From: Serratia liquefaciens
GTDB lineage: Bacteria; Pseudomonadota; Gammaproteobacteria; Enterobacterales; Enterobacteriaceae
Assembly: GCF_027594825.1 (NCBI RefSeq)
Contig: NZ_CP088930.1
Location: 5,283,175 to 5,347,174, forward strand
Length of the DNA: 64,000 nucleotides
Direction: 5' to 3'
Numbering within the stretch: position 1 is the first letter of the stretch; every line of letters begins with the position of its first letter. Below, one piece after another: positions 37,654 to 46,854 of the stretch. The position numbers and the translations under genes were made by a program. A model generated the notes under the pieces. That model did no database searches. It was not told the DNA's origin and saw nothing but the letters and a program-made list of their open reading frames with translations.

Positions 37654-38928
37654 ATGGCAAGCAGCAACTTGATTAAACAACTGCAAGAGCGGGGCCTCGT
37701 TGCCCAGGTTACGGATGAGGAAGCGTTAGCAGAGCGACTGGCGCAAGGGCCAATTGCACTGTATTGCGGTTTCGATCCGACCGCTGACAGCTTGCATTTG
37801 GGCCATCTGGTTCCTCTGTTGTGCCTGAAGCGTTTCCAGCTTGCCGGCCACAAACCGGTTGCGCTGGTGGGGGGCGCCACTGGACTTATCGGCGATCCGA
37901 GCTTCAAAGCGGCTGAACGTAAGCTGAATACCACCGATACCGTGAACGAGTGGGTGGAAAAAATCCGCAAACAGGTTTCTCCGTTCCTGGATTTCGACTG
38001 TGGCAGCAACAGCGCGGTAGCCGCCAACAACTACGACTGGTTCGGCGGCATGAACGTGCTGACCTTCCTGCGTGATATCGGCAAGCACTTCTCCGTCAAC
38101 CAGATGATCAACAAGGAAGCGGTGAAGCAGCGTTTGAACCGTGACGATTCCGGCATCTCGTTCACCGAGTTTTCTTACAACCTGCTGCAGGGTTTCGACT
38201 TCTCCGAACTGTACAACCGTCATCAGGTTGAGCTGCAGATCGGCGGCTCCGACCAGTGGGGCAACATCACCTCTGGTATCGATTTGACCCGCCGCATGCA
38301 TCAGCAGCAGGTGTTCGGCCTGACCGTGCCTTTGATCACCAAGGCCGACGGCACCAAATTCGGCAAGACCGAAGGCGGCGCAGTCTGGTTGGCACCTGAA
38401 AAAACCAGCCCGTACAAGTTCTACCAGTTCTGGATCAACACCGCCGACGCCGACGTGTACCGCTTCCTGAAGTTCTTCACCTTTATGGATCTGGCCGAAA
38501 TCAACGCGCTGGAAGAAGAAGACAAGAACAGCGGCAAGGCACCGCGTGCCCAGTATGTGTTGGCAGAAGAAGTGACCGGCATGGTGCATGGGACAGAAGG
38601 TTTGGCTGCGGCCAAGCGCATCACCCAGAGCCTGTTCTCCGGTGCGCTGCACGACATGACTGAAGCAGACTTCGCTCAGTTGGCGCAGGACGGCATGCCG
38701 ACCATCAAGCTCGATGGCGACGCCGATCTGCAACAGGCGCTGGTGAATGCCGAGCTGGTACCTTCACGCGGCCAGGCTCGCACCATGATTGGCTCCAACG
38801 CGGTGACCATCAACGGTGAGAAGCAGTCTAACGCCGAATACACCTTCAGCGACGCCGATCGCCTGTTCGGCCGTTATACGCTGCTGCGCCGCGGCAAAAA
38901 ACATTACTGCCTGGTAGATTGGCAGTAA
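37654..38928 (+). CDS. tyrS: Tyrosyl-tRNA synthetase
   Basis: 424 residues from the ATG at 37654 ([18 protein letters not shown]), the E. coli length; 14 upstream codons are rejected. Class I synthetase: HIGH-type motif HLGHLVPL (about 48-55), tyrosine-binding [12 protein letters not shown] (about 37-48), KMSKS-type KFGKT (about 234-238), and a C-terminal S4-like RNA-binding domain (about 357-424). Essential gene. In E. coli pdxY follows directly; here a 6.9-kb accessory segment lies between. Confidence 0.98.
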
Positions 38929-39025: not shown

Positions 39026-42000
39026 TTATGCTATCGCCTCAGCTAAGTGGCTCTCAGCAGCACCGTTAACAGTGATTGCCGGCGCTTTGTAGTGCAGGCT
39101 CACCGCAGCCAAGTAAGGGTCCTGATTGCCAATCGAAAATACAATGTCATCCGCATCAAACGTCTGGTTATGGTTTTTGTCCACAATGACATAAACCGAC
39201 TTGTCCAGCTTCAGCAAACCAACTTCGGACAGGTTATTGGTACTGGCTCCATGGGTCATATTAGCCAGTACCTGTGAGAACAGGTCGTGGGCGTTGTCGG
39301 TTGCTGTCAGACCGGTAAATGCATTCTTGATCTCAGCTTCCGTAGTAGCGCTGCCATACAGCGTGGCGCTTTTGTCACCTGTCTTGGAGAAAATCCATTG
39401 ATTGCCGGTATCACCGGCGGTAATGATGCTGTTTTGATAACCGCCATTCAAGGTGACCATGCTATCGATAGTACTGTCGGTAAAGGTTAGCGCTCGTGTA
39501 GTGTCCAGAGTGGTATTGCCTTTGACGTTGGCCGAATGTACGGTCAAGCCGGTGTTGGCGACCTTGAGCTGGTATCCGGTCAGATCGTCGATGATATGGC
39601 TAAAATCACTTTTGTTGGCAAGAGCGTTAAGCGTGTTGTAAAAGCTGCCACCGCCAGTACCACTTTTTTCCGAGACCAGGTTGAGATCTATTTCGGAGTA
39701 TACGGGCCCCATAGAGGCATCGATGCCGGTAATGGTTTGCAGATTATCCCCGAAATCCGATTTGATTGTCAGATTTAGCAGCATATCCGGCCTGGTCGTC
39801 AGGCCTGAGAGCAACAGCGTTGATATATGGTTTTCTCCTCCGCTCAACGTTAAAGCACGCTCTACTGAGTGGGTTGATGCGTGAGTCATGGAGATTTGCA
39901 GTGTGTCTTTATGTGTTGACGTCAGGCTGAATGTACCCATATCGATGTTGCGTATTTCAGTCGCGGCCTCTGACAACGCAAGAGAAAATGATTTGTCACT
40001 TTGAAGCGAGTCATACACGTGTACGCGGCTTTGATTGGTCAAATCACCGTTAACATACAGATAAGAATTGCTGACGTTGATAAGGGTCAGTTCGCCGGAA
40101 TAGGCGGAAATGATCGCGCCTTGGGAGCCTGTATAGTTACCAAAATGCGTTTGTGCGCGGTCAGATTGTTGAAGCATACTGACATTGCTGTAGGTTTGGT
40201 TAAAGATCGTGGCCTGTTGGTCAATCACGCCAAAATCAAAAACTTTGTTGCCTTCCGTCGCCACTAACTGTCCGTTCATATAAATATTGCCGGTGCCGCT
40301 ATAGTGGGTGAGGTCGATAAGGGAAAAGTACAGGAACTGGTTGATATTACTTACGATACTTCCATCGGTCCCCCCCGTACTATTGCTGGTTAAATAAATC
40401 GACTTGGTAATGAAATTTGCCGATATCATTGAGTTTGTGTTGTTGTCTTGGAGATCGCTCTGGGCCAGGAAACTGTCGCTGATATGATTGGCTCCCCCGT
40501 TTATGCTATTTCCTTCCCAGTATAATTGGTTGTTTAATAAAAGATTGATTTTTGCGTTACTGAGGTCGGTTCCTGCCTCAATCATTGCATTTGTGGCCTT
40601 TATCTGCTGCGTTGCATCAGCATTAGCGATGTTTGTTTCATTAAGCAACAGATCAACCGCGTACTTGCTACCTAATGAATCAAGAACTTTTGCGCTGGTG
40701 GCATAGTCGCCGGAAAGTACGATTTTATTGGTATTCATTAGTGGCAACCGGTTTAAATCCACCGCAATATTCATATTGGCGTTGATATTCAACTGGTTCA
40801 ATGAGGTCAGTGAAGCCATTTCTGCATAGGTAACTTCATGGAGCGTGCGGGTGTTGATATCCGCCATCAGCTTACCGCTGTCGGAAAGCGTGAAACTACC
40901 GTTAAACATCTTTTGATAGCCTAATGCAGTTCCTAAATTCACCTCATATTCATGCAGCAGGTTAGCGGGAGGGGGGCTGGGGTGATTGTCCAGAGGATAT
41001 TTCCCTTCACGGAAGGCATCGATGATAAGTGAGGTAGCCTTGATCTTGTCGTTACCTGCCTTCAGCAGGATTGCCTGCGCGGAAATGCTGTCGAGCGGAC
41101 TGCCATAGAGCTTCATATAAATGGACTGATAGTCCCCGGCATTACGGAATAGGTCTGTTTTGGATAAGATATTGAGTACTTCTGCTTGCGTTTTGCCCCC
41201 TACGAGCAGTCGGCTAAAAGAATCAATCGCAGTGGCATCGGCAGAGACTCCGGCGACCGTCAGGTAAAGTGACATGACGACTTCGGCATATTTAGCCGGA
41301 GGAAACTCGCCAGAAGCATAAACATGGGTTGCGGCAGTAAAGTTCTGTCTTGCTACATCGTGGCTGGTGTCATTTCTGATGTCGTTCATCATGCGCATCA
41401 TGACGTCGCCCCGTGTTTCACTCCCGTCGTTCAAGCTGGTGACATATTTTTGCAGTTCACTGTTGCTGGCGAAGGTGCCAAAGGCTTGTGAAAAAATCTT
41501 CTGCACAAAATCTTCGTTATTGAGTGAACTGATGTAACCTTTGAGGGAGACGAAATAGTTGGCCATTTCTACGGCGGTTTTTTTACCACTGTCTAAAACT
41601 CCACTCCAGTAATCGATGGCGGCGGAGTTGATCATACTACCGAGCAAGTAAAACATGCCTTGCACATTTTCTGCAGCTGAAAGCTGAGAGGGCAGTTCTA
41701 TTTGTGATGGGTACAGAGTAGTGCTGATGATGATTTCGAGATGCTTCTGTTGGTTCAGGGATGTTACATCTTGACCGTCATAATTTTTAGTTTCGTTAAT
41801 TAACGTTGTGGTCAGACTGCCCAATGTTTTGCCTGCATCGACTTGTGCGGCCAGAGAGCTTAAGGTTGCAGCATCCGGCGGCGCGCCATTGGTATTTTGA
41901 TAGATGTACTGCACCTTTTGGCTGGTTGACAGACCATCGTAACGATGTTGGCCATCTTGAGAGTTGATAAACTTGGCAGCCAATTCACTCTGAGTATAAG

Positions 42001-42112
42001 TGCCTTTTTCAAGCTGTCTGGCGAAATAGGTCAATGCTTTTTCATCTGCTTTTTTTCCGAGTGTGGAATAAAAAAGAATGGCGACATCTTGTTGTAACGT
42101 CAATAAGCTCAT
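39026..42112 (-). CDS. Giant SlaA-like surface protein with DUF4214-type N-terminus (copy 1)
   Basis: 1028 residues, no cysteine, no signal peptide. The N-terminal ~390 residues are helical with repeated DUF4214-like units (e.g. VAILFYSTLGKKADEKALTY, and Y.S.YMKLYGSPLDS near 330). The C-terminal ~600 residues are Asn/Thr/Ser/Leu-rich and beta-type. Near the end lies DKNHNQTFDADD (978-989), whose positions 1,3,5,7,9,12 fit an EF-hand calcium loop. There are no RTX nonapeptides. Length, composition and lack of a signal peptide suggest an S-layer protein exported by a type I system, as is known for SlaA of S. marcescens, which uses the Lip exporter. AAGG lies seven bases before the ATG. Base composition looks more A/T rich than the neighbours. 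Function is inferred. Confidence 0.75.
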   Translation of the reverse strand: MSLLTLQQDVAILFYSTLGKKADEKALTYFARQLEKGTYTQSELAAKFINSQDGQHRYDGLSTSQKVQYIYQNTNGAPPDAATLSSLAAQVDAGKTLGSLTTTLINETKNYDGQDVTSLNQQKHLEIIISTTLYPSQIELPSQLSAAENVQGMFYLLGSMINSAAIDYWSGVLDSGKKTAVEMANYFVSLKGYISSLNNEDFVQKIFSQAFGTFASNSELQKYVTSLNDGSETRGDVMMRMMNDIRNDTSHDVARQNFTAATHVYASGEFPPAKYAEVVMSLYLTVAGVSADATAIDSFSRLLVGGKTQAEVLNILSKTDLFRNAGDYQSIYMKLYGSPLDSISAQAILLKAGNDKIKATSLIIDAFREGKYPLDNHPSPPPANLLHEYEVNLGTALGYQKMFNGSFTLSDSGKLMADINTRTLHEVTYAEMASLTSLNQLNINANMNIAVDLNRLPLMNTNKIVLSGDYATSAKVLDSLGSKYAVDLLLNETNIANADATQQIKATNAMIEAGTDLSNAKINLLLNNQLYWEGNSINGGANHISDSFLAQSDLQDNNTNSMISANFITKSIYLTSNSTGGTDGSIVSNINQFLYFSLIDLTHYSGTGNIYMNGQLVATEGNKVFDFGVIDQQATIFNQTYSNVSMLQQSDRAQTHFGNYTGSQGAIISAYSGELTLINVSNSYLYVNGDLTNQSRVHVYDSLQSDKSFSLALSEAATEIRNIDMGTFSLTSTHKDTLQISMTHASTHSVERALTLSGGENHISTLLLSGLTTRPDMLLNLTIKSDFGDNLQTITGIDASMGPVYSEIDLNLVSEKSGTGGGSFYNTLNALANKSDFSHIIDDLTGYQLKVANTGLTVHSANVKGNTTLDTTRALTFTDSTIDSMVTLNGGYQNSIITAGDTGNQWIFSKTGDKSATLYGSATTEAEIKNAFTGLTATDNAHDLFSQVLANMTHGASTNNLSEVGLLKLDKSVYVIVDKNHNQTFDADDIVFSIGNQDPYLAAVSLHYKAPAITVNGAAESHLAEAIA

Positions 42113-42189
42113 GAGGTAACCTTGCGTGTAAAGGAAATATCCAGCAACAAGTACAGCTTAAAATAGGCAGATTACAAGGCGATAACACA

Positions 42190-42252: not shown

Positions 42253-45200
42253 TCAAACTAATTCAACACTGTGCTGGCTCAGACCGTTAACCGCGATAGG
42301 TGGCGCCTGATAGTGGACATCGTTAGCAATCTGATATACATCCTTGTCTCCCAGAGCAAATACCATATCGTCCTTATCAAATTGCTGATTATGATTTTTA
42401 TCAATTACCACATACACGTTACCAGCCATTTTTACGGCTCCTGCCTCGGCCAGACTTCCGTTACTGGCACCGTGAGTTATTTTTTCCAACGCTTTGGCAA
42501 ATATATCCTGTCCGTTGTCTTCACTTCCTACAGTGATTGAGTTAAAGAGCGCATTAACATCAGACGGTTTACTTACACTGCCGTAAACGGCCATTGTCTG
42601 ACTGGTGCCAGAGCCAAATAACCACTGCTCGGCACCCTTGCCGACGAAGATGGTATCGCTTTTCTCAAGGACTTCTATAGTAACCATGCTGTCGATATTG
42701 CTGTTACCAAAGCTGATTTTATTGCCGCCACTATAAGGGTCACCATCCCGATAGCGTGTCAGAGTCGTGTTGCCCTGGATCTCAAAACTGTTAGTTGCTG
42801 TGTAGGCGATGGTTAGTTGATTGCCAGACAGATCGTTAATGAGCCCATCATAAGCACGGTGATCATTCAGGGATTGCAACAGCTTATAAAACGTTCCCCC
42901 ACCGGTACCGCCTTTTTCCAGAATCAGGTTTGCCTTGATAATCGGTGGTTGGCTCCAGGGATCTTCTATCACAGGGATGGTGATGTCTTTCAGTGAGTCA
43001 CTAAAATCGGCTTTAATCGTCAGGTTTAGGTCGGTAGAACCACTTATCACCATTGTTTCAATATGATTGCTGCCGCCTGCCAGAGTGAGTGAATTGTTCG
43101 AAGTGCCGGAAGAGCTAACATATAATAATTCACCGGAGACGGCAGTCGAGTGACTGGTAAGGCTTACTGTGCCGCCATCCACCATGGATGTTTTAGTGTT
43201 GCCTACCACGATGCTCCAGGTGGGCGTTTCACTGCCGGTGGCAGTCTCGAGGTGCACTTTGCTTTTACTGGTGGCATTTTCCGTGATACGTAATAACGCA
43301 GGTTTCGCCAAAGAAACGTTTATGACATGAACATTGTCGGCAAAACCTGACAGATTAAAACCCATTGAGCCGGTCCAGATTTTGCCGGTACTGTCTTTTT
43401 GAGCTGCATCGGCCTGGGTAAGGCGAGTTACTCCTGAGTACTTGCTATTGTAGATGCTGGCCGTTTGATTCAATAAGCCTGCATCAAACAGGTTTGCGCC
43501 CTCAGTCGCTATCTGTTGCCCATCCAGATAAATATTTCCTGTACCTCGATAATTTGCCAAATCGATAAATTGAAAATGTAGGAACTGATTCAGATTGCTT
43601 TGAAGAAATCCGCTGATACCTCCGTCTGACTCCGTGGTCAACAACACATCTTTAGTTATGAAGTTCGCCGAAATGACGCTGAAGTTATTGTATTGCCCAG
43701 TGGATGTAGACGTAGCGGTAAAGTCGTTGCTGATCTTATTGACTCCGCCGGGGATGGCATTGCCTTTCCATAGCAGCCGGATTTCGTCCGCGCCGTCTAT
43801 GTTTATATGTGTGTGCGCGGTGCTGACATTGAGTTGATCGGCCACGATGCGACTGCTTAGATTGTTGAAATCAATCAAGCCCGCAGCGTTGGTTACGTTG
43901 TTATCGTTGAGGTAAAGCGTAACATTCTTGTTTCTCAGTGAGTCGAGTGTAGCTTGGTTGGCCGCAAAATCACCTTGCAAAGAGACCTGTTGCAATGATT
44001 TGGCAAAGCTGAGATCGACAGCTGTTTCGACATCCACGTTGAGGGTAATTTGGAGGAGTTGCGCGATTTCGGCATGGCTTAATTGGTGTTCGACACCGGT
44101 GTTAATACTCCCGCTGAGGATGCCATCGGTATTCGATAATGTCACATTGCCGCGGATCTGATAACCCAGTTCGCTGCCGATCTTGTACTCGAGGTTGACC
44201 ATACTCTCGGCACCAGGTACGGGGCCACTGTCCAGCGGGGCTTCGCCATTGCGGAATGTATCGATAATATTCAACGTTGCCTGTAGTGGATTATTCCCTG
44301 CTTGCTGGAGAATAGCCTGTTTCTGCAATTCATTGAGGGCAGTACCGTAGAGTTTAAGATACACGGCACCGAAGTCCGCGGCACCCTGGAAATGGGGCGA
44401 TTTTGCTAGAAAAGTCAGCAGATCCAGATTGGTCTTCCCACTGGCTAGCATTTTGCTGTAATAGTCCAACCCGGCAGCATTCAGGGTGGTTTTGCTCGCT
44501 AACTGCAGAAAAAGTAATGCTACAGTTTCTTGGTAATTCAGTGCAGGAAGCTCACCCGCGGCATAAACATGGGTGGCATTAAGGAAGTTTTGTTTGGCCG
44601 TATCGTGTGAGTTATCGTTGCGAATATCAGTAATCAAACGAATAAGGACATCGCCACGAGTTGCTGTATTGTTATTTAACCCAGCTACATAATCGGTGAT
44701 TTCACTTTCATCAGCCTCTACACCAAAAGTATTCTTATATACGGTTTTTACAAAGTCTTCGTTACTCATTTCTTTCAACCAAATGCGCGTATCTACAAAT
44801 CGCCCTGCGATATAACTGGCACTGGCTTTCCCTTCGGCAAGAACACTGCTCCAATAATTAATACCGTCTGCAACCATGAGGCTTCCAACTACATAAAACA
44901 TAGCCTGAATGTCGGCGGCTGCGTCAGCATTGGCTGGATAGGGCGTCAACGCCGGATATAACGTAGTATCGATAACGTCGAACAAATGCTGTTGTTGTCC
45001 AACCTGAGCGGCATCGCTGCCAGTATAACTCTTTACTCCGCTAACTAAATCTTTAGTGAGTTGTCCCAGAGATTGGCCACCGTTGACCTGCGCGACTAAT
45101 GTTCCCAGCAGGCTCGGCGCCGGAGCTTCGCCTGTGATGTTTTTATAAATATATTGAATTTTTTGCGCGATGGTTAAACCGTCATATCGCTGATGTCCAT

Positions 45201-45357
45201 CCAGAGATTGGATAAATTTTTCGGCTAGTTGGTCTTTAGCACACAGCCCCAAATCCAGTTGCCTGGCGAAAAAATCCAGTGTTTTGGCATCGGCCTTTTT
45301 ACCGAGCGTCGCATAAAAAAGAATGGCTACGTCCTGTTGTAAGGAAAGGAAGCTCAT
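42253..45357 (-). CDS. Giant SlaA-like surface protein (copy 2, first transcribed)
   Basis: 1034 residues from the ATG at 45357 (MSFLSLQQDVAILFYATLG), which has GGAG eight bases upstream; an ATG four codons earlier lies on the ribosome site. It is a clear paralogue of the neighbouring protein along its whole length: shared blocks include LQQDVAILFY, HVYAAGE-type, ANFITK, GTGNIY, SNLNQFL, GTGGGTFYKLL and THGAS. EF-hand-like loop DKNHNQQFDKDD at about 986-997. Only one cysteine (about 43), no signal peptide, no RTX repeats. Identity between copies is moderate, so the duplication is not recent. A likely type I secreted surface or S-layer protein; this is inference from composition and family resemblance. 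Confidence 0.75.
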   Translation of the reverse strand: MSFLSLQQDVAILFYATLGKKADAKTLDFFARQLDLGLCAKDQLAEKFIQSLDGHQRYDGLTIAQKIQYIYKNITGEAPAPSLLGTLVAQVNGGQSLGQLTKDLVSGVKSYTGSDAAQVGQQQHLFDVIDTTLYPALTPYPANADAAADIQAMFYVVGSLMVADGINYWSSVLAEGKASASYIAGRFVDTRIWLKEMSNEDFVKTVYKNTFGVEADESEITDYVAGLNNNTATRGDVLIRLITDIRNDNSHDTAKQNFLNATHVYAAGELPALNYQETVALLFLQLASKTTLNAAGLDYYSKMLASGKTNLDLLTFLAKSPHFQGAADFGAVYLKLYGTALNELQKQAILQQAGNNPLQATLNIIDTFRNGEAPLDSGPVPGAESMVNLEYKIGSELGYQIRGNVTLSNTDGILSGSINTGVEHQLSHAEIAQLLQITLNVDVETAVDLSFAKSLQQVSLQGDFAANQATLDSLRNKNVTLYLNDNNVTNAAGLIDFNNLSSRIVADQLNVSTAHTHINIDGADEIRLLWKGNAIPGGVNKISNDFTATSTSTGQYNNFSVISANFITKDVLLTTESDGGISGFLQSNLNQFLHFQFIDLANYRGTGNIYLDGQQIATEGANLFDAGLLNQTASIYNSKYSGVTRLTQADAAQKDSTGKIWTGSMGFNLSGFADNVHVINVSLAKPALLRITENATSKSKVHLETATGSETPTWSIVVGNTKTSMVDGGTVSLTSHSTAVSGELLYVSSSGTSNNSLTLAGGSNHIETMVISGSTDLNLTIKADFSDSLKDITIPVIEDPWSQPPIIKANLILEKGGTGGGTFYKLLQSLNDHRAYDGLINDLSGNQLTIAYTATNSFEIQGNTTLTRYRDGDPYSGGNKISFGNSNIDSMVTIEVLEKSDTIFVGKGAEQWLFGSGTSQTMAVYGSVSKPSDVNALFNSITVGSEDNGQDIFAKALEKITHGASNGSLAEAGAVKMAGNVYVVIDKNHNQQFDKDDMVFALGDKDVYQIANDVHYQAPPIAVNGLSQHSVELV

Positions 45358-45436
45358 TGGGTGCTCCATGAAAGTATGAGATGAAATTAAGCTTTAAGTA
45401 CAGTCGAAAATCCTTAAAACACAACATACTTGTCAG

Positions 45437-45454
45437 TAAGGAAACTCTGGTTTT
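45437..45454 (-). promoter_or_regulatory. Shared 18-bp leader motif, copy 2
   Basis: On the minus strand AAAACCAGAGTTTCCTTA, 17 of 18 bases as in copy 1, 79 bp before the start codon. A hairpin (GTGCGG/CCGCAC, 45462-45487) stands just upstream, in the same relative place as the hairpin before copy 1. Confidence 0.55.
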
Positions 45455-45501
45455 ACGAAGTGTGCGGGCCCGTTGTTGCTGCCGCACGGTTGGGGAGGGG
45501 A

Positions 45502-45545
45502 TTATGCTAATTCAGCGCTAGAGGCGGATAACCCCGAATCGCTCT
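45502..45545 (-). pseudogene. 3' end remnant of a third SlaA-like gene
   Basis: The minus-strand frame ending SASSAELA-stop (TAA at 45502-45504) resembles the copy 1 ending HLAEAIA-stop at DNA level (both end GCATAAT). Its stop lies 47 bp before the shared leader motif of copy 2, as copy 2's stop lies 45 bp before the motif of copy 1. The coding part left is very short, so this call rests mainly on position. Confidence 0.5.
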
Positions 45546-45558
45546 GTCCGCGTCTGGA

Positions 45559-45748
45559 TCACGGTTCTTCACGTCGCGTAATCAGTTGACAATCATGGTT
45601 GCTGCTCAGCGATAGCGCCCTACATGCCTGGCGTTTACTCTTCGTAAACTGCACGGTCAGATAACTGACAGGCTAACGTTTTATCGATGGTTTTAAAGTT
45701 TTTTTCGATGATATCTTTCAGCGTTCGACATTCCAGGGTGAGATCGGC
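45559..45748 (-). mobile_element. Fragment of an IS3-family transposase
   Basis: On the minus strand, 45748-45635 reads ADLTLECRTLKDIIEKNFKT..., like the end of IS3-group OrfA (ADLSLEN..LKDVIEKKL). From 45642 to 45559, in another frame, KSKRQACRALSLS resembles the OrfB beginning (VSVRQACRALSLSR). A frameshift and stops break it, and no terminal inverted repeats were found. It is a dead scar of an insertion sequence. Confidence 0.65.
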
Positions 45749-45749
45749 A

Positions 45750-45815
45750 AACACCATTGGTATTTTTATACATGTACTTCACCTTTTGTCCGGTGAACAG
45801 TCCATCGTAATGATG
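45750..45815 (-). pseudogene. N-terminal remnant of a third SlaA-like gene
   Basis: 22 codons read [20 protein letters not shown] plus GV, corresponding to HRYDGLSTSQKVQYIYQNTN of copy 1 (about residues 56-75). The DNA match is also strong. The frame is stopped upstream and is cut at the IS fragment two bases downstream. Confidence 0.8.
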
Positions 45816-45993
45816 TTCTGGTTATTCTATTTTTTTGCTGCTGGGCTTTCGCTATAATATGACGCCGCCAAAAAATAAAAAGGTCCTCCAGTTTCTTGTT
45901 TTTAGACGCGCCGGCATAACGTTTGTACGTTATTTATCCACTCTATTTCGCCGCGGGCAGATGCACACGGTATGGCGAGGTCAGGTTGTTCCA
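45816..45993. other. Upstream region of pdxY
   Basis: It contains a TATAAT at 45853-45858 that may serve pdxY, without a good -35 element. The open frame running from 45835 into pdxY is not conserved and is not part of the gene. Confidence 0.4.
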
Positions 45994-46854
45994 ATGAAAA
46001 ACATTCTTTCTATTCAGTCCCATGTGGTGTTTGGCCACGCGGGCAACAGTGCGGCAGAATTTCCGATGCGTCGCATGGGCGTTAACGTCTGGTCGTTGAA
46101 CACCGTCCAGTTCTCCAATCACACCCAGTACGGCAAGTGGACCGGTTGCGTGATGCCGGCCAGCCACCTGACGGAAATTGCCCAGGGTATTGCGGATATC
46201 GATCAACTCAAGCATTGCGATGCCGTGCTGAGTGGCTACATCGGTTCGCCGGAGCAGGGTAGCCATATTTTGGAGATCGTTCGTCAGGTCAAACAGGCCA
46301 ATCCACACGCCTGGTATTTTTGCGATCCGGTTATGGGGCACCCTGAAAAAGGCTGCATCGTGGCACCGGGCGTGGCGGAGTTTCATTGTCAGCAGGCATT
46401 GCCGTGCAGTGACATGATTGCGCCAAACCTGCTGGAACTGGAGTTGTTGAGCCAGCGCACCGTCGCGGACGTTGATCAAGCGGTAAGCGCTGCGCGTGAG
46501 TTAATTGCCAAGGGACCGAAAGTGGTGCTGGTCAAGCACCTGAGCCGCGCCGGTTACCATCCGGACTGTTTCGAAATGCTGTTGGTCACGGCTGACGAAG
46601 CCTGGCACATCAGCCGTCCGCTGGTGGATTTTGGCAGCCGTCAACCGGTAGGCGTGGGCGATCTGACCAGCGGCCTGTTGCTGGTTAACCTGCTTAAGGG
46701 CAAGGCGCTGGATAAGGCGCTGGAGCACGTGACGGCGGCGGTTTATGAAGTGATGCTGACCACCCAGGCAATGGGACAGTATGAATTACAAGTGGTGGCG
46801 GCTCAGGATCGTATCGTGCAGCCAAACTGTGATTTTAAAGCGGTAAAACTGTAA
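45994..46854 (+). CDS. pdxY: PdxY, pyridoxal kinase
   Basis: 286 residues from the ATG at 45994 ([20 protein letters not shown]). Phosphorylates pyridoxal in the vitamin B6 salvage pathway. Ribokinase-like fold with [20 protein letters not shown] (about 25-44), [12 protein letters not shown] (about 110-121) and the catalytic Asp in [14 protein letters not shown] (about 216-229). In E. coli it directly follows tyrS; here it probably needs its own promoter because of the opposite-strand insertion. Confidence 0.96.

Follow-up and report, generated by a model that had tools for sequence, protein, structure and literature searches.

Between a tandem pair of SlaA-like genes and a pdxY-type kinase gene of Serratia liquefaciens lies a short ruin, which is very probably the dead relic of gene A of a three-gene array (A-B-C) for SlaA-like proteins of the surface-layer type (DUF4214). 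An IS3-family element would have entered this gene, and illegitimate deletions would have removed most of it. The window, that is, the whole stretch of DNA that we analyse, has 64,000 nucleotides (G000:C1:5283175-5347174, survey label G000). In it the ruin is located between copy 2 and the kinase gene, and both SlaA-like copies lie on the minus strand between the two border genes, which we take to be tyrS (37654-38928, +) and pdxY (45994-46854, +). The parts of the ruin and the joints between them are seen directly in the DNA, as are the open A genes of two relatives. The features are collected in Table 1.

Table 1. Features of the tyrS-pdxY site, with positions counted along the window
Feature	Position	Strand	Evidence or remark
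tyrS	37654-38928	+	left array border; found in 30/30 genomes
Copy 1 = gene C, SlaA-like, DUF4214	39026-42112	-	83% to C of G018; Pfam
Promoter-like element of copy 1	42150-42177	-	aligned upstream regions
Copy 2 = gene B, SlaA-like, DUF4214	42253-45357	-	84% to B of G018 and G019; Pfam
Former A/B intergenic region (present copy 2 leader)	45374-45492	-	72.2% to G018 (115 bp), 77.4% to G019 (93 bp)
Promoter-like element of copy 2, conserved	45397-45424	-	aligned upstream regions
Stop codon TAA, probably gene A's own	45502-45504	-	ungapped extension puts it on the A stop of G018 and G019; sequence support weak
Internal IS3-family fragment (orfA end / orfB start) without either end and with a broken frame	45541-45753	-	76-80% to L043, L035, L044, L036; right edge uncertain by ~20 bp
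Rfam isrN (RF01396) match, antisense within the IS piece	45556-45694	+	64.1 bits, cut-off 44, full model length
Gene A remnant, ~codons 56-76, without start codon	45754-45817	-	DNA alignments to copy 1, G019 A, G018 A
5' deletion junction at a short repeat common to the pdxY flank and SlaA coding sequence	45809-45817	-	overlapping alignments
pdxY 5' flank, running unbroken into the ruin	45809-45990		88.8% (G019), 86.3% (G018) over 205 columns, 46010-45809
pdxY-type kinase gene	45994-46854	+	right array border; in relatives adjoins SlaA-like gene(s) or tyrS directly

The array and its intact relatives

We begin with the two copies in the window. Each has a single Pfam match, DUF4214 (E 7e-16 to 3e-15 in copies 1 and 2 and in the A gene of G019), and neither reaches a family model in the NCBIfam search. 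A sequence search of the PDB with copy 2 returns nothing at E <= 0.01, and a Foldseek search with a model of residues 1-400 of copy 1 (pLDDT 89.3) returns nothing at E <= 0.001, its best match being a weak one to a phycobilisome linker (E 0.0088). The start of copy 2 is probably the second ATG, at 45357, and not the in-frame ATG upstream at 45369, in agreement with the other copies.

Using tyrS as an anchor, we survey the site in 30 genomes of the genus. The order pdxY-A-B-C-tyrS is present in two of them, G019 (locus L033) and G018 (S. proteamaculans UME734, NZ_SWDE01000001.1; locus L034), with A and B open in both. The original prediction, made from the window alone, had pointed to other Serratia genomes as the place to look for an intact third gene, and these two genomes provide it; a genome with the full IS inside gene A is not found among the 30. 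The B genes of the relatives are 84% identical to copy 2 and their C genes 82-84% identical to copy 1, while their A genes have 47-51% identity overall to copies 1 and 2. The C gene of G019 is frame-broken near codon 893 (L033, about 11962), so the decay of that array may be continuing. Because both outer flanks of the ruin align to G018 and G019 on either side of A, the ruin, judged by its sequence, is gene A, the first of the array.

Within this one genus the site ranges from no SlaA-like gene, with pdxY directly after tyrS (20 of 30 genomes; in G027 pdxY itself is fragmented), through a single gene (G012, G016, G021 and G024) and the two genes plus ruin of the window, to the three genes of G018 and G019. 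G006 has no SlaA-like gene at the site though its tyrS is 99% identical, and G014, where the site runs off the contig edge, is left out of these classes. G007, the only other genome marked as the same species, carries at least one gene, which differs from those of the window; we dropped it as a remnant-only carrier because its locus is split by contig ends. In G005 the only SlaA sequence is a C-terminal remnant, which belongs to a separate wreck at the same site (L037 2867-3317), where a C-like SlaA tail is followed towards tyrS by what looks like the end of an IS3-type OrfB, the latter recognised by eye and not by a family search. This parallel wreck supports the array origin of the ruin.

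The remnant of gene A and its junctions

A SlaA-like peptide of 20 residues had been proposed upstream of copy 2, and we find it on the minus strand at 45815-45756. The proposed similarity of 45815-45750 to the paralogues also holds in alignment: the DNA from 45817 to 45754 matches copy 1 in the same register (85.9% identity over 64 bp, E 7.8e-18), the A gene of G019 (84.2%, 57 bp) and that of G018 (82.8%, 58 bp). Chance similarity is ruled out by shuffles, since the ungapped score against copy 1 is 46 and the maximum among 300 shuffles is 13. When the first 400 nt of each of 14 SlaA-like genes are searched, 13 share nt 164 as the best register of the remnant, and the remaining one, the slaA linked to the exporter, gives at best 27/64, at another register. 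At the common register the remnant is identical to copy 1 at 55 of 64 bases, to A of G019 at 52, to G018 A, G018 C and G019 C at 51, and to the other eight genes at 36-44. In copy 1 the best DUF4214 stretch (10-55) ends before the first codon that the ruin keeps. A DNA search of the window's own genome with 45370-45990 returns, besides itself, the match of 45817-45754 to copy 1 (86%) and a match of 45753-45602 elsewhere (80%).

The joints can be placed with different precision. At the 5' joint the flank alignment to G019 ends at 45809, past the start of the SlaA alignment to copy 1 (45817), and the resulting overlap of nine bases is typical of a deletion between short repeats. Relative to G019 and to G018, 282 bp are missing here, and with them the leader of A, its start and about 56 codons. 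The joint of A to the IS (45754/45753) is sharp, with little common sequence, and the joint of the IS to the 3' end of A lies between about 45541 and 45505, its exact point not being located by alignment.

The predicted stop at 45502 is indeed a TAA (45504-45502), and its predicted spacing to the leader of copy 2 (47 bp, against 45 bp from the stop of copy 2 to the leader of copy 1) agrees with the mapped positions. Extended without gaps from the anchors 45492 (G018) and 45466 (G019), the TAA falls on the stop of the intact A in both relatives. In the 21 bases up to and including the stop, a stretch chosen post hoc, 13 are identical to G019 (reached by 21 of 20,000 shuffles) and 12 to G018 (76 of 20,000). 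A free alignment of 45541-45493 is at chance level against the end of A (228 and 409 of 500 shuffles reach the score) and not clear against the IS (55 and 64 of 500). The leader of copy 2 aligns over 45466-45374 with G019 and over 45492-45378 with G018.

The IS3-family fragment

The original prediction placed a decayed IS3-type OrfA/OrfB fragment at 45748-45559. The fragment is real and these limits are too narrow, for it runs from 45753 to about 45541-45546, with the edge at 45753 recurring in 22 of 26 alignment rows of IS-bearing loci. The IS3 match is borne out. The piece matches 317 plasmid records, and among the 20 listed, 16 are annotated as 'IS3 family transposase', one as 'hypothetical protein' and three carry no annotation; the OrfB of a relative matches transpos_IS3 of NCBIfam at 222.8 bits (cut-off 160). 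The IS relative L043, to which the piece has 80% DNA identity over 214 columns, contains the domains HTH_Tnp_1 and rve and matches NF033516 (transpos_IS3). Across all matches of at least 150 bp, the identity is 74-80%, and a DNA search with a 621-base query that includes the flanks gives some match in 19 of the 30 genomes of the genus.

The full IS relatives (L043, L035, L044 and L036) are 1205-1207 bp long and have TGTAAGTATCC at both ends (pattern search, 4 of 5 loci); for L032, the other IS copy of the window's genome, only the left end is recovered by the same search, and a general repeat search at its settings recovers no IS ends. What the ruin retains corresponds to about nt 285-497 of 1207; both terminal inverted repeats lie outside this piece, which is therefore a fragment and not an element, its decay marked by stops and frame changes. 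The genome holds one other IS match (80% over 153 bp), which means that a near-identical donor is no longer present there.

Promoter-like elements and mosaic genes

The element CTGTACTT is found in 10 of the 13 SlaA upstream regions compared (it is absent from those of G018 C, G019 C and G007), which suggests a promoter for each gene of the array. In copies 1 and 2 a TTG hexamer is followed, after a gap of 16 nt, by TGTACT. Because the sigma-70 consensus scan does not report the elements of copies 1 and 2 (it gives five sites against a shuffle mean of 6.1), we infer their putative promoter function from conservation. The ruin has neither a start codon nor a promoter-like element.

The genes themselves are uneven in their relationships (loci compared: L033 2811-12374, L034 2720-12281 and L040 9154-12258). 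Taken in bins of 100 residues, the identity between A and C of G018 is 91, 80, 93 and 66% in the first four and 27-45% beyond. In trees of 12 proteins, which carry a long-branch warning so that some placements are unsure, A groups with C for residues 1-330 (100/100), and the two separate from residue 600 on. The single gene of G021 has a B-like front and a C-like back: in the N-terminal tree it falls with B and the genes of G012 and G024 (89/96, unresolved within), and in the C-terminal tree it joins C together with the gene of G007 (100/100). Among columns of the same residue in the first 320, the codons are identical in 216 of 279 between A and C of G018 and in 166 of 266 between the C genes of G018 and G000, a pattern that gene conversion would be expected to give. 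The array genes have the look of mosaics in which N- and C-terminal halves were swapped, and a recombining array seems to be supported.

As a tentative extension, which we would call conceivable rather than probable, the tyrS-pdxY site may be a surface-layer diversification locus, where homologous recombination exchanges N-terminal (putative anchor) and C-terminal (putative lattice) halves among paralogues and where copies are gained, fuse with one another or disappear, the ruin being one frozen loss. If this is true, surface variety would be generated by shuffling domains within a tandem array and not by inverting a promoter.

Alternative readings of the pieces

The next question is whether 45556-45694 is a working isrN-type small RNA, for which the IS piece was kept. 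The covariance score is above the cut-off (64.1 against 44 bits) over the full length of the model, but IS copies score too: one of 14 IS-bearing loci lacks a match and the other 13 reach 111-149 bits (11 loci) or 82 and 64 bits (the remaining two), and the places in the IS relatives (L043 1861-2003, L036 1891-2033) lie on the strand opposite the orfA/orfB overlap. Across the 30 genomes there are 24 isrN places above the cut-off, in 16 genomes. The window's own and 22 others overlap IS places from the DNA search (23 of 24, compared by eye) and the last (G001:C27:349348) lies within orfA and orfB of the same IS, that is, all 24 are inside an IS; 14 control genomes give no match. The pairing is decayed as well. 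The ruin keeps 18 of 25 pairs and L043 keeps 24, with 29 substitutions between them, while 29 random substitutions leave 17.3 pairs on average and reach 18 in a fraction of 0.48, so that pairing beyond random decay is not found in the ruin. Nor does the sigma-70 consensus scan report a plus-strand promoter-like site in 45400-46000. With the IS copies matching, all places inside IS and the pairing decayed, we reject a working isrN gene as extremely improbable; the match reflects IS ancestry. In this genus the Rfam label isrN marks a piece of an IS3-family element, which may affect small RNA annotation elsewhere.

Two other readings concern how the pieces came to be in place. The IS piece could be filler DNA captured during break repair within A, without transposition into it, as might be thought from the internal position of the piece, the loss of both IS ends, the lack of a target duplication and the absence of a near-identical donor. 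Filler inserts, however, are usually short, and insertion with later deletions is the commoner history; we regard such a capture as unlikely. The SlaA piece, in turn, could be a fragment of a C-type gene that arrived by recombination among array members, and not ancestral A. With 55/64 bases it is indeed nearer to copy 1 of its own genome than to A of G019 (52/64) or of G018 (51/64), and the N-terminal third is common to A and C in the relatives. Against this, the piece sits at the place of A, with the pdxY flank on one side and the A/B intergenic region on the other, and the 3-4 bases of difference in 64 are few and would arise equally by conversion of A by C, which makes a C-type origin rather improbable. 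The closeness to copy 1 would be explained if A and C shared their N-terminal part here as in the relatives, though 64 bp are not proof.

The probable death of gene A

We return to the reading of the ruin as gene A. The original prediction of a three-gene array, whose first gene was hit by an insertion sequence and then mostly deleted, is upheld in its array, with open A genes in two of the 30 genomes and matching flanks; one insertion with one deletion is insufficient because neither IS end survives. An IS3-family element most likely inserted in gene A, a transposition that we infer, since no target duplication or IS end survives. Illegitimate deletions would account for the loss of both IS ends and of the larger part of A's body, together with its leader, its start and the first ~56 codons, and the loss of 282 bp at the short repeat would be an event separate from the loss on the IS side. 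The order of events is not readable from the sequence. An adjacent deletion mediated by the IS was considered and dropped, for one IS end would be expected to remain and none is kept. What is left is about 21 codons, the internal IS piece, probably the terminal codons with the stop, and the A/B intergenic leader.

Some points stand against the gene A reading. The array is rare (two of 30 genomes have three genes besides the window), G007 differs and G006 is empty; the remnant is marginally nearer its own copy 1, and the 49 bases before 45492 are at chance level in free alignment.

No SlaA-type protein would be expected from the ruin, because it is without a start and a promoter-like element. 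The loss of A need not silence B, because copy 2 keeps a promoter-like leader of its own; the simplest view would be dead sequence beside a copy 2 that is still independently expressed. As a pseudogene the ruin is ordinary and the surrounding array is the more interesting. With intact relatives to compare, the ruin shows the erasure of a large surface-protein gene.

Comparison with known systems

The same genome encodes a 995-aa DUF4214 protein beside an exporter of the ABC / HlyD / TolC type (identified by TIGR01842, TIGR01843 and TIGR01844). This is likely the slaA-lip locus, the pair being presumably the SlaA surface-layer protein and the Lip type I exporter. Copy 2 resembles the 995-aa protein at about 30-33% over nearly its full length, whereas the copies at the tyrS-pdxY site stand in tandem next to these two genes and match no NCBIfam model. 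As a separate observation, the IS family is represented, at least by a fragment, within about 2-10 kb of slaA at the exporter locus of G001, G005 and G002 (L091 3663-4754, L092 4016-5145 and L093 3018-3152), three genomes that were examined because their matches lay close; this is perhaps coincidence or shared descent.

Compared with an IS3-family element of 1205-1207 bp, the ruin is without the ends, has a broken frame and has no self-mobility. Compared with Rfam isrN (RF01396), it is alike in its covariance match and differs in its eroded pairing, the match being the opposite strand of the IS piece.

A further comparison is the surface-layer locus sap of Campylobacter fetus, where switching works by one promoter that inversion moves among silent genes. 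The Serratia array is like it in having several surface-layer-like genes with common N-terminal parts and differing remainders, but its genes all point in one direction, each with its own leader.
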